Source of the DNA: Blastococcus sp. CT_GayMR19
Lineage (GTDB): Bacteria; Actinomycetota; Actinomycetes; Mycobacteriales; Geodermatophilaceae
Direction: 5' to 3'
Length of the DNA: 64,000 bases
Assembly: GCF_004570385.1 (NCBI RefSeq)
Contig: NZ_SPQL01000007.1
Coordinates: 124,001 to 188,000 of the forward strand
Shown piece by piece: positions 50,331 to 56,213 of this stretch; position 1 is the first letter of the stretch; each line of letters begins with the position of its first letter. The translations under genes and the position numbers were made by a program. The notes beneath the pieces are model-generated. The model was not told where the DNA came from, searched no databases, and worked only from the letters and a program-made list of their open reading frames with translations.

Positions 50331-52064
50331 GTGCACCCCGGCTCGGCCCGCGTCGCCTCCGGCGACCTCGAGGCTGCGCTCTGGCGTCTGCTCGCCAGCA
50401 GCGACCGGCAGGACGACGCCTTCCTGACCCTCGTCGGCGAGACCGCCGACGCGTTCGCCGGCACCTCCGACCCCCTCTGGGTCGCGTGGCGGAGCGCGCT
50501 CGCGGCCCGGCGGGCGCTGCTCGGGAACGAGCCCGACCAGGCGGCCCAGGACGTCGCCGCCGCACGCGAGTCCCTGGACAAGTGCGACCCGTCGGCCCAC
50601 ACGGCGCTGGCGATGTCCTACCTGGCCCACATCCAGGTCGCCGCCGACCACTTCGATTCCGCGATGCTGCTGGCCGTCGATGCCAGCCTGCTCACCGAGC
50701 ACCCCCCACCCACCGCCGACGCGGGCGGGCCGTCCCGGGCTCTGCTCCAGGCGCACCGCTGGCTCTCGATGACCCTCGCCGCCCTCGACCTCGAGGAGCT
50801 GGCCGTCGCCCACGCGATGCGCGCCCAGCACGTCGCCGCCGCACTGCGGAGCCCCGAGGACCAGTGGCGGATGCGGCTGCTGTCGGCTCAGCAGCACACC
50901 GAGCTCGCGCAGACGCTGCGCCGTCGCGGCAACGCCGACCGCGCGCGCGAGCTGGCCGGCGAGGCCGTCGCCTGCGCGGCCTCCGCCCGGGAGCTCGGCT
51001 GGGAACCGGACGAGGACGCGACCGAGCTCGACCTGCTCGACGTCGTCCAGGCCTGGGCGTTGACGTGCGCCGACGATCTCGACGGCGCGCTCGGCCCGCT
51101 GCGCCGGGTCCGTCGCCGCGTGGAGGCCGAGGGCAGCCTCTGGCTGCGCGGCTACACGGGCCTGGCGCTGGCCCGCCTGCTCGCCCGGATGTCGCAGCGC
51201 GACGGCAACGACGAGGAGAGCGGCGAGGAGGCGATCGGCCTGCTCGTCGACGCCGGCGGCGCGTTCGCGGCCGCGGGCGACCGCCGCCGCTACCGCCAGA
51301 GCCTGCTCGAGCTCGGCCAGCTCTCCGCCGACCTGGGCCGCCCGGCCGAGGCGCTGCACTGGCTGGAGGCCTACCGCGCCGACACCGGTCGCGCGCAGGC
51401 CCGTGGCCGGGAGCTCTGGGCGGAGATGTTCGTGCGCCGCAGCCGGCTGCGCGAGGCCGAGCGCCAGGCGGCCCTGCTGCGCCGGCACGCGCTGGAGGAC
51501 CCCCTCACCGGGCTCGGCAACCGGCGCAGCGCCGAGCGGCGCCTGGGCGCGCTGCCGCTGAGCGAGCAGCCGCTGTCGCTGGCGGTCGTCGACGTGGACC
51601 GGTTCAAGTCGGTCAACGACGCCGCGTCGCACACCGAGGGCGACGTCGTCCTGCGCCGGGTGGCCGATCTGCTGCGCGAGCACAGCCGCACCGGCGACGA
51701 GGTGTACCGCTGGGCGGGCGACGAGTTCCTGGTGATCCTGCCGAGAGCCACCGAGCCGCAGGCCGTCGTGGTCGCGGAACGCCTGCGCAGCGCCGTCGCG
51801 GCCGCCGACTGGAACGACGTGCAGATCCCCGGGCCGGTCACCGTGAGCATCGGGGTGGCCAGCACCGCGGGCACCGCCGAGGGCACGCCGGGCGCGGACG
51901 CCGGCTGGCGGGCCCTGTTCGACGCCGCCGACCTGCACCTGTTCTCCGCCAAGCGGAGCGGCCGGAACCGGGTCCGCGCCCCGGGCGCGGGCGCGTCCAC
52001 CGGGCCCGCCGGCGACCCCGGGGACGACGAGGACGCAGCGCCCGACGGGGAGGCGAACCCGTGA
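50331..52064 (+). CDS. Diguanylate cyclase with TPR-like N-terminal domain
   Basis: 577 aa. Residues 1 to about 370 are Ala/Leu-rich helical repeats resembling TPR; a coiled stretch (RRSRLREAERQAALLRR) leads to the GGDEF domain (about 390-550). The active-site signature is A-G-D-E-F (near 461), an accepted variant, and an inhibitory RxxD (RTGD) lies five residues upstream, so product inhibition is expected. No membrane segment. GGAGGAA precedes GTG 50331. A paralogue follows directly. Confidence 0.9.
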   Translation: MHPGSARVASGDLEAALWRLLASSDRQDDAFLTLVGETADAFAGTSDPLWVAWRSALAARRALLGNEPDQAAQDVAAARESLDKCDPSAHTALAMSYLAHIQVAADHFDSAMLLAVDASLLTEHPPPTADAGGPSRALLQAHRWLSMTLAALDLEELAVAHAMRAQHVAAALRSPEDQWRMRLLSAQQHTELAQTLRRRGNADRARELAGEAVACAASARELGWEPDEDATELDLLDVVQAWALTCADDLDGALGPLRRVRRRVEAEGSLWLRGYTGLALARLLARMSQRDGNDEESGEEAIGLLVDAGGAFAAAGDRRRYRQSLLELGQLSADLGRPAEALHWLEAYRADTGRAQARGRELWAEMFVRRSRLREAERQAALLRRHALEDPLTGLGNRRSAERRLGALPLSEQPLSLAVVDVDRFKSVNDAASHTEGDVVLRRVADLLREHSRTGDEVYRWAGDEFLVILPRATEPQAVVVAERLRSAVAAADWNDVQIPGPVTVSIGVASTAGTAEGTPGADAGWRALFDAADLHLFSAKRSGRNRVRAPGAGASTGPAGDPGDDEDAAPDGEANP

Positions 52065-52165: not shown

Positions 52166-54913
52166 GTGCCACCCGGAGCCCTGCACCAGCGGGTGACCGC
52201 GGCGCTGGCGAACTGGCAGCTCGACGATGCCGAGGAACTGCTCGCCGGCGTCGAGCGGGATCCCTCCCCCTACGTCGCCGCCGAACCGGCCGCCGACGTC
52301 CCTGCCGACCCTGCCGCCGCCCCCGGCTCCCTGGGCCGCGCCTGGGCCGACACCCTCCGGGCCGAGCTGCTGGTCCGCCGGCTGCGCGTCGCCGGCTTCA
52401 CCCTCGTCGGGGATCCGGTGGACACCCCGCCCGAGTCGGCGGAGCCCGCCCTCGACCTGCACGCCGGTGTCGCCGACCTCATCGACGGCTCGGACGAGGA
52501 GTCCGACCCCCGCGCGGAGTCCGCCTCGCGCGCCGCCCTCGCCATCGCCCTGGTGCGCTCGGCCAAGGCCGCGTTCGACGCCACGGACGACGACCTGCAG
52601 CGCGCCGCCGGGCTGGCCCGGCACGCCCGCATCGAGCTGCTCTCCCGCCGGATCGACGCCGCCATGGACGAGGCGGTCGAGGCGGCCAGCCTGCTCGACC
52701 CCGCCCTGCCGCCGAGTTCCCTGCTCGTCGACACGCTCGGCACCCTCGCCGGCGTGCTGGCCGACCTCGAGCTGATGCCGCTGGCGCTGGACTACCAGCG
52801 CCGCTCGCACGAGGCCGCGATCGCCGCCGCGGCGCGGCCGGGCGCGCTGGGGGAGGAGGGGGACGGAGACTTCGCGGGGGACCCGGTGGTCGTCGTCGCC
52901 ACCACCGCCACCCGCCTGGGCGAGCTGTGCGCCGAGCTCGGTGAGGGGCTCCTCGACGACGGCGCCCCCGAGTCGGCCACCCCGCACTTCGCCGAGGCCC
53001 GCCGGCTCGCCGAGCACGCCCTGGAACTCCTTCCCCCGGACGCGCCCGGCCTCGTCGCGGCCCAGGTCGTGCACGGCTGGGCCCTGGTCGGGCTGGGCGA
53101 GCACGCGGCCGCCACCGGCCCGCTGCGCGCCACCGTCCGCATCACCTCGGCCACCGCCGACCGGGCCCAGCTGGCCTCCGCGCAGCTCGCGCTGGGCCGG
53201 GCCCTGCGCCGGCAGGGCGACCTCCGCCCGGCCGACGAGCACCTCGTCTCCGCCCTCACCCTCGCGACCGAGCACGGGCTGCCCCGCCTGCGCCGCGCCG
53301 CGCTGCGGGAGCTGTGCACGCTGCACGCCGACCAGGCCGACGCCGGCCGGGCGCTGCCCTACCTGCAGGCCTACCTCTCCGACGAGCTGGACCGGGTCGA
53401 CGAGCGCCGCACCCGCTGGGTGGAGCTGTTCGGCCGACGCAAGAGCCTGCTGGAGACCGAGCGCGCCGCCGGTCAGCTGCGCCGCCAGGCCTACGAGGAC
53501 CCGCTCACCCACCTGCCGAACCGGCGCTACGCCGAGGCCCGCCTCGACGGGCTGCTGTCCGCGGGTGCCGCGCCGGCCCTGGCCGTCGTCGACGTCGACC
53601 GGTTCAAGGAGGTCAACGACGCGATCGGGCACCCGGGCGGGGACGCGGTGCTGCGGATCGTCGGGGAGCTGCTGATCGCCGGCGTCCGTGACACCGACGA
53701 GGTGTGCCGCTGGGCCGGCGACGAGTACGTCATCCTGCTGCCCGACACGACCGCGGAGCAGGCGGAGCGCGCCCTCGAGCGCACCCGCCGCAAGGTCGCG
53801 GCCTACGACTGGGACGAGCTGGGTCTCCCCTTCCCCGTGACGATCAGCGTGGGCATCGCCTCCGCGGCCCGCGGTGACGACCGGCGCACGCTCTTCGCCG
53901 CCGCCGACGGCGTGCTCTACGACGCCAAGCGCAGCGGCCGCGACCGGGTGATCCGGCTCTCCGGAGTCACCCAGACGCGGGTCGACGCCAACCCGCTGGA
54001 CGAGCCCGCCGGGCCCCCGGCGGACGCCCAGGACGCCGGCACGGCTCCCGGCGACAGCGCGGACGACACGACGGCGGTCGTGGTCGCCGGCCCATCGCCG
54101 TCCGTGCCGTCCCCGCCGGTCCGCTCCGCCTCCGACGGCACCGACGGCTTCGCGCGGCTGCTCGCCGGGCCCCGCGCGGTCGACCCGCCGCTGGGCACGG
54201 GAAGCCCCATCGAGCCCCTTCTCGGTCCGGCTCCTGCTGCCCCCGTCGAGCAGGCTCCCGTGCTCGGCGCTCCCGGCGGCGGACCGGCCCGCATCCCGGC
54301 GGAGCCCGAGGTCATCTGGGCCACCGGACGGACCACCGAGCAGGTGCTCGCCCTGGTCCGGGAGGCGCGCCGGGAGCACCCCGACCGGCCGGCTCTCGTG
54401 CTGCGTGCGACCGCCGACGTGCTGGTGGCGCTGGCGAGCGAGCACGACGCGTACACGACGATGGACGCCGCCGCGATGGCCGCCGCCGTCGGGCCGATGC
54501 CCGAGCCGGTGGGACGCGTGCACGTGCTCTGCACCGGGGGTGGTGACATCCCGGTGGCCGCGGAGGCCGCCTTCGCCGCCCGGGTCACCGGCACCGAGGT
54601 CGTCCGGGTCGACGACGTCGGGGCCGCCCGGATCCGCGCCATGCTCACCGACGGCAGCCTGCTGAGCGACGTCGACTGCCTGGTCGTCGTCGCCGGGCTG
54701 GACGCCTCGCTGGCCCCGATGATCGGCGCGATGACCGACGTCCCGGTGATCGCGGTGCCCACGTCGACCGGCCAGCCCGCCGCGTTCGGTGGCCTCGGCG
54801 CGCTCATGACGATCCTGAACTCGACGTCGCCGGGCGTGGCGGTCGGCGCCATCGACAACGGCTACGCCGCGGGCGTCTTCGCCGCCCGCGTGGCCAGACG
54901 AGCGGGAAGGTGA
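52166..54913 (+). CDS. TPR-like / GGDEF diguanylate cyclase fused to a LarB-like domain
   Basis: 915 aa in one frame. About 1-425 helical repeats; about 441-600 GGDEF (AGDEY near 516, with RxxD as RDTD upstream); about 600-700 Pro/Ala-rich linker; about 705-910 LarB-like (EVIWATGRTTEQVLALVREA, VHVLCTGGGDIPVAAEAAF, VVVAGLDASLAPMIGAM, VIAVPTSTGQPAAFGGLGAL, ILNSTSPGVAVGAIDNGYAAG). LarB carboxylates and hydrolyses nicotinic acid adenine dinucleotide for the nickel-pincer cofactor. The place where LarB has Cys (NSCAPG) is Thr here. CACAGT ends 6 nt before GTG 52166. larC follows 122 nt later. Confidence 0.85.
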   Translation: MPPGALHQRVTAALANWQLDDAEELLAGVERDPSPYVAAEPAADVPADPAAAPGSLGRAWADTLRAELLVRRLRVAGFTLVGDPVDTPPESAEPALDLHAGVADLIDGSDEESDPRAESASRAALAIALVRSAKAAFDATDDDLQRAAGLARHARIELLSRRIDAAMDEAVEAASLLDPALPPSSLLVDTLGTLAGVLADLELMPLALDYQRRSHEAAIAAAARPGALGEEGDGDFAGDPVVVVATTATRLGELCAELGEGLLDDGAPESATPHFAEARRLAEHALELLPPDAPGLVAAQVVHGWALVGLGEHAAATGPLRATVRITSATADRAQLASAQLALGRALRRQGDLRPADEHLVSALTLATEHGLPRLRRAALRELCTLHADQADAGRALPYLQAYLSDELDRVDERRTRWVELFGRRKSLLETERAAGQLRRQAYEDPLTHLPNRRYAEARLDGLLSAGAAPALAVVDVDRFKEVNDAIGHPGGDAVLRIVGELLIAGVRDTDEVCRWAGDEYVILLPDTTAEQAERALERTRRKVAAYDWDELGLPFPVTISVGIASAARGDDRRTLFAAADGVLYDAKRSGRDRVIRLSGVTQTRVDANPLDEPAGPPADAQDAGTAPGDSADDTTAVVVAGPSPSVPSPPVRSASDGTDGFARLLAGPRAVDPPLGTGSPIEPLLGPAPAAPVEQAPVLGAPGGGPARIPAEPEVIWATGRTTEQVLALVREARREHPDRPALVLRATADVLVALASEHDAYTTMDAAAMAAAVGPMPEPVGRVHVLCTGGGDIPVAAEAAFAARVTGTEVVRVDDVGAARIRAMLTDGSLLSDVDCLVVVAGLDASLAPMIGAMTDVPVIAVPTSTGQPAAFGGLGALMTILNSTSPGVAVGAIDNGYAAGVFAARVARRAGR

Positions 54914-55035: not shown

Positions 55036-56213
55036 GTGATCGGCTGGCTGGATCTCGCTGCCGGGGCGTCTGGCGACATGCTGCTCGGGGCCCTCGTCGA
55101 TGCCGGGGTCCCGCTCGACGTGCCGGCGGCCGCGGTCGCCGCGCTGCCGGTGGAGCGGATCCGGCTGGGAACGGAGCCGGTCACCCGCTCCGGGCTGGGG
55201 GCGACCCGCGTGCACGTGCACGCACCGGCGTCGTCCACGCATCGGACCTGGTCCGACGTGCGGTCCCTTCTGAACGCCGCCGCGCTGGACCCCGCCGTGC
55301 GGCAGGGCGCGCTGGCCGTGTTCGAGCGCCTGGCCGTCGCCGAGGGACGCGTGCACCGCGTCCCGCCCGAGCAGGTGCACTTCCACGAGGTCGGCGCACT
55401 CGACGCGCTGGCCGACGTGGTCGGCGTCGTCGCCGGCTTCGCGCACCTCGGGCTCACCCGGCTGACCGCCTCCCCGGTCGCGCTGGGCAGCGGCTCGGCG
55501 CGGGGAGCGCACGGCGTCGTCCCGATCCCCGGGCCGGCCGTGCTGGAGCTGCTCGCCGGGATCCCCGTGGTCGCGGGCCCGGTGCCGGCCGAGATGTGCA
55601 CCCCCACCGGCGCGGCCCTGGTGGCCGAGCTCGTGGACGAGTGGACGACGCTGCCCGCCCTGCGCGTGACCCGGGTGGGTACCGGTGCCGGCGCCCGCGA
55701 TCCGGTCGAGCTGCCGAACGTCGTCCGGCTGGTACTGGGCGAACCGGTGGAGGCGGCACCGTCGGGGCCGGTCGTGCTCGAGGCGAACATCGACGACCTG
55801 GACCCGCGACTGTGGCCCGGCGTCCTGGACGCGCTCCTCGCCAATGGCGCCTCGGACGCGTGGCTGACCCCGATCCTGATGAAGAAGGGCCGCCCGGCAC
55901 ACACGCTCTCGGTGCTGTGCCGCCCCGAGGCCGTCCCGGACGTGCAGGGGCGGTCTTCGCGACGACGTCGACCATCGGGCTCCGGGTGACGCCGGTCGGC
56001 AAGGTGGCGCTGGAACGGACGGCGTCTTCGGTCGAGGTGCTGGGCGGCCGGGTGGGCGTGAAGGTGGCCGTCTCCGGCGGGCGGGCGGTCAACGTCAGCG
56101 TCGAGTACGAGGACGTCGCCGCGCTGGCCCGCGACCTGGGCCTTCCGGTCAAGGAGGTCCTGCGGGCCGCGACCGCCGCCGCCGCGACGGACTGGCCCGT
56201 TCCGTCCCGCTGA
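55036..56213 (+). CDS. larC: LarC nickel-insertion protein, needing a -1 frameshift (larC1/larC2)
   Basis: Frame 0 from GTG 55036 encodes LarC1 (DLAAGASGDMLLGALVDAG at the start; VHFHEVGALDALADVVG; ANIDDLDPRLWPGVLDALL; MKKGRPAHTLSVLCRPE) and stops at 55989. LarC2 continues in the -1 frame to 56213 (AVFATTSTIGLRVTPVGKVALER...VSVEYEDVAALARDLGLPVKEVL). The natural switch is at CAG GGG CGG (G-run 55947-55950): a GGG-decoding tRNA can slip to GGG. The joined protein is about 390 aa, the usual LarC length. LarC inserts nickel using CTP. In Lactiplantibacillus plantarum LarC is also made by programmed frameshifting. A sequencing error or a pseudogene is the alternative. Confidence 0.82.

Follow-up and report, generated by a model that had tools for sequence, protein, structure and literature searches.

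Diguanylate cyclases are usually under the control of standard sensor domains, and GGDEF enzymes act as dimers. LarB, an enzyme of nickel-pincer cofactor biosynthesis, is octameric, as are its PurE relatives. In L. plantarum LarB, Cys221 is reported to be the catalytic residue and Glu180 also to have a role, according to the structure paper in the Proceedings of the National Academy of Sciences. LarB adds CO2 to nicotinic acid adenine dinucleotide (NaAD) and releases adenosine monophosphate (AMP) (excerpted text of PMC11796402). Here we describe a gene that joins a diguanylate cyclase to a LarB-like domain, located at positions 52166-54913 of a 64,000-nucleotide stretch of contig NZ_SPQL01000007.1 from Blastococcus sp. 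CT_GayMR19 (hereafter the window). No description of a GGDEF-LarB architecture was found in the literature searched, judged by titles and abstract openings, and nothing was found there on a pseudoenzyme sensor domain attached to a diguanylate cyclase. The literature found on cyclic di-GMP (c-di-GMP) in Geodermatophilaceae appeared, by title and word counts, to be off-topic.

In kind, the encoded protein is a presumed diguanylate cyclase to which a domain of a new type has been added. We consider it probable that this C-terminal domain is a LarB that has been disabled as an enzyme and turned into a regulatory module of the cyclase. A single frame runs on the forward strand without interruption from a GTG at 52166 to a stop at 54913 and encodes 915 amino acids. 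The start is uncertain, as the frame is also open 5' of this GTG, and an alternative GTG start, at 52061, shares bases with the stop codon of the gene before it. The features of the fusion gene are as follows.

52166-54913, + strand: fusion gene encoding helical repeats, a GGDEF domain, a linker and a LarB-like domain (open frame, Pfam, NCBIfam, AlphaFold2)
52166-53341, + strand: N-terminal alpha-solenoid (TPR-like), residues 1-392 (AlphaFold2 helices; sub-threshold PF17874 match)
53342-53491, + strand: long helix (residues 393-442) that leads into the GGDEF domain (AlphaFold2; predicted local distance difference test, pLDDT, 53-63 at residues 411-440)
53489-53947, + strand: GGDEF (diguanylate cyclase) domain, residues 442-594 (PF00990, E 3.1e-35)
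53687-53698, + strand: I-site RDTD, residues 508-511 (R508 and D511 invariant in 89/89 full-length orthologues)
53714-53728, + strand: signature AGDEY, residues 517-521 (AGDE invariant in 89/89)
53969-54286, + strand: disordered linker rich in Pro and Ala, residues 602-707, with a small conserved patch near 661-666 (pLDDT)
54305-54898, + strand: LarB-like (PurE-fold) domain, residues 714-911 (NF033503, Foldseek, AlphaFold2)
54824-54826, + strand: codon for the Thr of NSTSPG, which takes the place of Cys221 in L. plantarum LarB (alignment)

An initial annotation, made from the letters of the DNA and its open reading frames, had described a one-frame fusion of this kind with AGDEY, RDTD and a linker, and the open frame, Pfam, NCBIfam and AlphaFold2 all bear this out. 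A chance open frame in DNA of 73% GC was considered and ruled out by family-wide conservation and by the ratio of non-synonymous to synonymous substitution rates (dN/dS). The frame is beyond chance, since 92 of the 95 genomes with both domains on one contig have them in the same frame with no stop.

AlphaFold2, run with 66 aligned sequences, gave a model of mean pLDDT 81.6, with an alpha-solenoid up to residue 392, a long helix (393-442), the GGDEF domain (approximately 453-598), disorder (602-707) and a folded C-terminal domain. The solenoid is mostly above pLDDT 80, with lower values at residues 31-60 and 231-240, and its match to TPR_MalT (PF17874), at 32.6 bits, lies under the Pfam cut-off of 45. 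The linker falls below pLDDT 50 at 602-686 and 688-707; among orthologues it is 60-166 residues long and 21% P and 19% A. At residues 661-666 (54146-54163) it holds a conserved patch, GF..LL, around an invariant Phe662, and a similar patch is left in a genome that has lost the LarB domain (G080). This patch is a possible binding motif.

Beyond the linker, AlphaFold2 folds the LarB part as a separate domain, which reached pLDDT 88.5 when modelled alone. Foldseek matched the full-length model to L. plantarum LarB (7mj0, 7mj1 and 8std) over about 200 residues with template-modelling scores (target) of 0.76-0.84, and the common fold is accompanied by 36-37% identity in these alignments. Pfam also reports AIRC (PF00731, E 2e-10). 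The NCBIfam LarB model NF033503 covers residues 714-911 at 155 bits in the whole protein and 159.7 bits for the domain alone, and its cut-off of 175 is not reached. Reversion to PurE chemistry was rejected, the purE model scoring 29-32 bits against a cut-off of 149.6. The fused domain differs from LarB in being joined to a cyclase, in falling under the NCBIfam cut-off and in being kept in genomes without larE and larC.

The residues of the LarB site are extensively lost. Cys221 (L. plantarum numbering) is present in none of the 100 readable fused domains and in all 41 stand-alone LarBs; the fused domains have Ala (78), Ser (10), Thr (6), Gly (4) or Pro (2) instead. The fusion under study has the Thr of NSTSPG, so the absence of the expected cysteine, remarked on in the initial annotation, stands. 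The full set comprises 101 fused domains, one of which is truncated and unreadable at position 221 and six of which are cut before the GGDEF part and were counted as fused by similarity. At the 70 positions conserved to at least 95% in stand-alone LarBs, the fused set keeps 31 (residue present in at least 90% of the set) and has lost 19 (in less than 10%), with 20 mixed between these limits; besides Cys221, therefore, 18 near-invariant positions are lost. Ser127 and Tyr204 are found in no fused domain, Arg159 in one, His158 and Arg45 in eight each and Arg42 in 11, and the fusion under study has none of the six. The LarB segment that carries Arg42 and Arg45 is missing from its N-terminal end. 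The core motifs PTS and D-N-G are kept, as in LarB: Asp128, Asp151, Pro199-Thr200-Ser201, Asp231 and Gly233 are retained, N232 is present in 85%, and position 180 is acidic in 100 of the 101 (Asp 93, Glu 7). Other residues, such as R57, L65, V66, R67 and A181, are near-invariant in the fused clade and differ from the stand-alone majority. The initial annotation had raised an active enzyme using another residue; such an enzyme with another nucleophile is rejected on account of the many losses of conserved residues and of the genomes that keep the fusion without the pathway, and a canonical Cys-bearing larB exists beside larE.

The fusion is widespread in Geodermatophilaceae. Among 112 genomes from 12 genera, the LarB query matched in 111, and 92 have GGDEF and LarB in one frame with no stop. 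Three further fusions are interrupted, six are cut by contig edges ahead of the GGDEF part and 11 genomes show no fusion. Nine of these 11 (genera g5-g7) have stand-alone larBs; the helical-repeat/GGDEF part was not matched in these nine at E 1e-30, several of the assemblies being incomplete. A tenth (G097) may have its LarB part outside the assembly, since its helical-repeat/GGDEF part ends about 250 bases from the contig end. The last, G080 (locus L270), belongs to genus g8, in which most named members are Klenkia; its helical-repeat/GGDEF protein stops within the linker and the LarB domain is lost. The names attached to the contig matches are Blastococcus, Geodermatophilus, Modestobacter, Klenkia, Goekera and Trujillonella, all genera of Geodermatophilaceae.

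Of 79 loci from the best 80 matches of a wider contig scan, 75 are named for or similar to Geodermatophilaceae and four are distant stand-alone LarBs. One record (L202), titled Bacillus sp. AZ43 (UNVERIFIED_ORG), holds a fusion-type LarB at 78% identity, and its label looks wrong. No fusion was seen outside the family in an order sample of 397 genomes, of which 13 non-family loci were opened and further matches, some in open frames of 500-600 amino acids, were left unopened, or in a class sample of 394 genomes, of which 20 loci were opened. The best non-family matches of the order sample are 50-56% identical, and the 13 opened loci (L167-L177, L185, L186) are all stand-alone, with Cys and an adjoining larC. 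The 20 class loci were selected because their frames were long, their matches partial or their scores high, and none matched the fusion's GGDEF domain. The Cys is visible in 16 of them; in the other four (L286, L287, L288, L295) its position lies outside the stretch seen, and a motif search did not turn it up.

Canonical LarB tracks the nickel-pincer pathway and the fused LarB does not. Family searches, from which lists of gene presence were compiled by hand, found larC in 82 of the 112 genomes, larE in 72 and larA in 35. The 29 genomes without larC and larE also all lack larA and a second LarB; 27 of them have the fusion in frame, one has it frame-broken (G046) and one has lost the LarB domain (G080). 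All 27 are at least 90% complete. In the 101 genomes with a fusion locus, match counts indicate a second LarB in 62 of 62 with larE and in two of 39 without it, and all 15 second copies examined carry the Cys. Since 27 of the 29 pathway-free genomes keep an in-frame fusion, nickel-pincer synthesis is not the reason for keeping the fused domain, and its retention suggests that a dead enzyme now serves a signalling enzyme. A connection between c-di-GMP and the nickel-pincer cofactor, of which the initial annotation knew no characterised example, is contradicted by these genomes.

The LarB domain is under purifying selection in the pathway-free genomes. For the 27 with an in-frame fusion, median dN/dS by simple Nei-Gojobori counting over 77 within-genus pairs, which are related and non-independent and have GC-rich codons, was lowest in GGDEF (0.10), equal in LarB and the repeats (0.29 each) and highest in the linker (0.56). 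In larE-bearing genomes the LarB median was 0.24 (300 pairs), and across genome sets the linker lay at 0.56-0.59. The pathway does not protect the fused domain, since the four most diverged copies (G005, G019, G020 and G107) sit in genomes with both larC and larE.

The fusion appears to have arisen from a larB that stood beside larC. In a tree of 67 LarB sequences, all 27 fused rows form one clade (support 100/100), whose stem measures 0.91 changes per site. Directly 5' of larC lie the stand-alone larBs of 13 loci from other families of the order and five of genera g6-g7. Those of the larB-larC pairs L144-L148 and L167-L177 are 45-56% identical to the fused domain; all 16 have larC directly downstream, as beside the fusion, and, unlike the fusion, all 16 have an intact Cys and no GGDEF domain. 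The larC beside the fusion is therefore most simply the old neighbour of larB, because stand-alone larBs of relatives directly precede larC. We propose a single joining event, in an ancestor of the core Geodermatophilaceae, between the larB of such a pair and one of two tandem genes of the helical-repeat/GGDEF type. The domain derived from this larB would then have lost its catalytic cysteine, together with a large share of the conserved substrate site, while keeping its fold, and cofactor synthesis would have stayed with, or moved to, a separate canonical larB beside larE.

The cyclase part appears competent. Its PF00990 match scores 121.8 bits against a cut-off of 23.8, and Foldseek matches this part of the full-length model to SiaD, PleD and WspR. 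D476, D478, N484, D485 and AGDE, the metal- and GTP (guanosine triphosphate)-site and signature residues of the GGDEF family, are invariant in all 89 full-length orthologues, as are R508 and D511 of the RxxD I-site; the last residue of the signature is F in 84 and Y in five. Judged from these residues, the domain probably makes c-di-GMP. To our knowledge, VCA0965 of V. cholerae carries no LarB domain. VCA0965 is a cyclase with an AGDEF signature that makes c-di-GMP (excerpted text of PMC3974145). It shares the AGDE[F/Y] signature with the fusion, which also has the metal- and GTP-site residues and an I-site.

Two genes flank the fusion in the window.

50331-52064, + strand: upstream tandem GGDEF gene, its N-terminal region like that of the fusion, without a LarB domain (PF00990, E 2.7e-29)
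55036-55989, + strand: larC, first part of the frame, with the C-terminal part in another frame to about 56213 (PF01969, E 1.3e-107)

The upstream protein is 37.5% identical to the fusion over 522 amino acids, which span the pre-GGDEF region and the GGDEF domain, and has an I-site RTGD and a signature AGDEF. It resembles the fusion in both regions and differs in having no LarB domain. In neighbour counts made from stretches of limited length, so that absent genes may be out of reach, this gene stands beside the fusion in 27/27 larC-less and 61/64 larC-bearing loci, pheA in 26 of 27 and 59 of 64, and a UPF0016 gene in 24 of 27 and 38 of 64, respectively. At every one of 95 loci, R..D and AGDEF are present in the best match to the tandem GGDEF domain, which in a few loci may be the fusion's own domain. 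The tandem protein and the fusion probably work together.

The gene larC starts at 55036, 122 bp past the fusion stop, so the initial annotation was right that it follows; its frame, which breaks near 55,945 in this assembly, is not intact there. It is the only copy in the genome, found in two pieces. The two parts lie in one frame in 15/15 relatives checked, and the break could reflect a sequencing error where G is frequent, a genuine loss or recoding. In L. plantarum, larC expression is reported to involve frameshifting. On contig C24 of the genome that carries the fusion, a canonical larB with its Cys in place (...LTACAPG...; LDLDRAERTGTPEVV near its start) lies adjacent and convergent to larE (L004, 6766-8294) and not next to the fusion. 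Neither larC nor larA was found on this 16.7-kb contig, and larA (Lar_N) had no match anywhere in the genome, in agreement with the earlier remark that neither larE nor larA is visible in the window. That annotation had named a complete Cys-bearing larB beside larE, together with a fusion that is not conserved, as evidence against its reading; the larB is there, and the fusion is strongly conserved.

Elsewhere in the family the adjacency of larC holds in part. In 72 larC-bearing fusion genomes (that of the window excluded), larC is in the fetched stretch in 56, and within 1 kb downstream in 52. In the other 16 it lies approximately 4.5-4.8 kb from the fusion (G024, G025, G027, G037), is split between contigs (G033), or stands right after a second larB elsewhere (ten genomes of g3, and G109). 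A group (L055, L068, L092, L107 and L111) within g2, the genus whose named members are Blastococcus, has larC but lacks both larE and a second LarB. The larC of this group is 64-72% identical to that of the window, whereas other fusion-adjacent larCs are at 77-85%. This suggests that larC in this group is decaying or has another role.

Whether the fused LarB still works in nickel-pincer biosynthesis, or regulates that pathway, turns on larC and on the second LarB. The proximity of larC within 1 kb in 52 of 72 genomes would speak for such a role, but it is explained by the larB-larC order of relatives, and an in-frame fusion persists in 27 of the 29 genomes without the pathway. No Cys is left in 100 readable domains, and a second LarB accompanies larE in 62/62 fusion-locus genomes and is present in 2/39 without it. 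We regard this role as very improbable. It is improbable, to a lesser degree, that the LarB part is a relic in decay which the protein simply tolerates at its C-terminus. A relic would fit the lost LarB domain of G080, the three genomes with frame breaks and the strong divergence of four members. The LarB median dN/dS, 0.24-0.29 with and without the pathway, is about half that of the linker, however, and 92 copies remain in frame with the clade-specific near-invariant residues R57, L65, V66, R67 and A181.

The explanation that we favour, a disabled LarB domain regulating the cyclase, has two specific forms. In one the domain is purely an assembly scaffold that gathers cyclases, possibly with the tandem GGDEF protein, and binds no ligand. 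This is a real if tentative possibility, as the fold is kept while conserved site residues are lost, GGDEF enzymes are dimeric and LarB and PurE octameric, the tandem partner is nearly always there, and the long flexible linker would allow such gathering. The predicted models are monomers only, however, and G080 keeps its GGDEF part without the LarB domain. In the other form the LarB part binds a pyridine or adenine nucleotide (NaAD, nicotinamide adenine dinucleotide (NAD), nicotinamide mononucleotide, AMP or similar) without catalysis and so switches the cyclase, which would couple NAD-related metabolism to c-di-GMP. This we consider possible and somewhat doubtful. The fold, PTS 199-201, positions 231-233, Asp128, Asp151 and the acid at 180 are kept, solved LarB entries include, by title, an S127A variant and NAD and AMP complexes, and purifying selection acts on the domain where the pathway is absent. 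The losses set out above weigh on the other side: Cys221 is gone from all readable domains, Ser127 and Tyr204 from all, and Arg159 from all but one, while His158 and Arg45 survive in eight each and Arg42 in 11 of the 101. The loop 868-873 is also predicted at low confidence. The earlier suggestion of NaAD or NAD as ligand is possible and is weakened, because Ser127, Arg45, His158-Arg159 and Tyr204 are mostly or wholly lost; NaAD itself looks unlikely.

On its flexible linker, the fused LarB would probably set the oligomeric state or the partner contacts of the cyclase, perhaps with a ligand in a remodelled pocket at the subunit interface, and could in this way favour or block the pairing of GGDEF domains. 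The earlier reading of the LarB part as a non-enzymatic module of the cyclase is supported. The data show the conserved fusion, the residue losses, the single clade, the retention without the pathway, the purifying selection and the predicted folds, and we infer that the cyclase is active and regulated by its LarB domain, and how. Several observations count against this explanation. Any effect of the LarB domain on the cyclase is drawn from sequence and models, and the AlphaFold2 models are of monomers only. Conservation is weaker in the LarB domain than in GGDEF, and in G005, G019, G020 and G107 the LarB domain has drifted further, with deletions. Three of the 112 genomes have interrupted fusions (a stop in G031; frame changes in G046 and G091), and one of these, G046, is a pathway-free genome assembled in a single contig. 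In G080 the LarB domain appears dispensable, because the repeat-GGDEF gene is kept without it. The simple dN/dS estimates, from related pairs with GC-rich codons, weigh here too.

It seems that an enzyme of the biosynthesis of a rare nickel cofactor became, in a single event, a conserved appendage to a cyclase. About a hundred of the 112 family genomes have kept it, and 27 of these are without the parent pathway. This is a clean natural case of an enzyme becoming a regulatory domain. It is also a warning not to annotate such proteins as LarB or to count them as evidence of nickel-pincer synthesis. It is a speculative and rather unlikely extension that this LarB-derived pseudoenzyme represents a new class of sensory domain, which would read a nucleotide of the NAD pathway or a related metabolite and set c-di-GMP output across the core of the family, independently of the nickel-pincer cofactor. 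For c-di-GMP signalling in Geodermatophilaceae, the fusion provides a starting point that can be tested.

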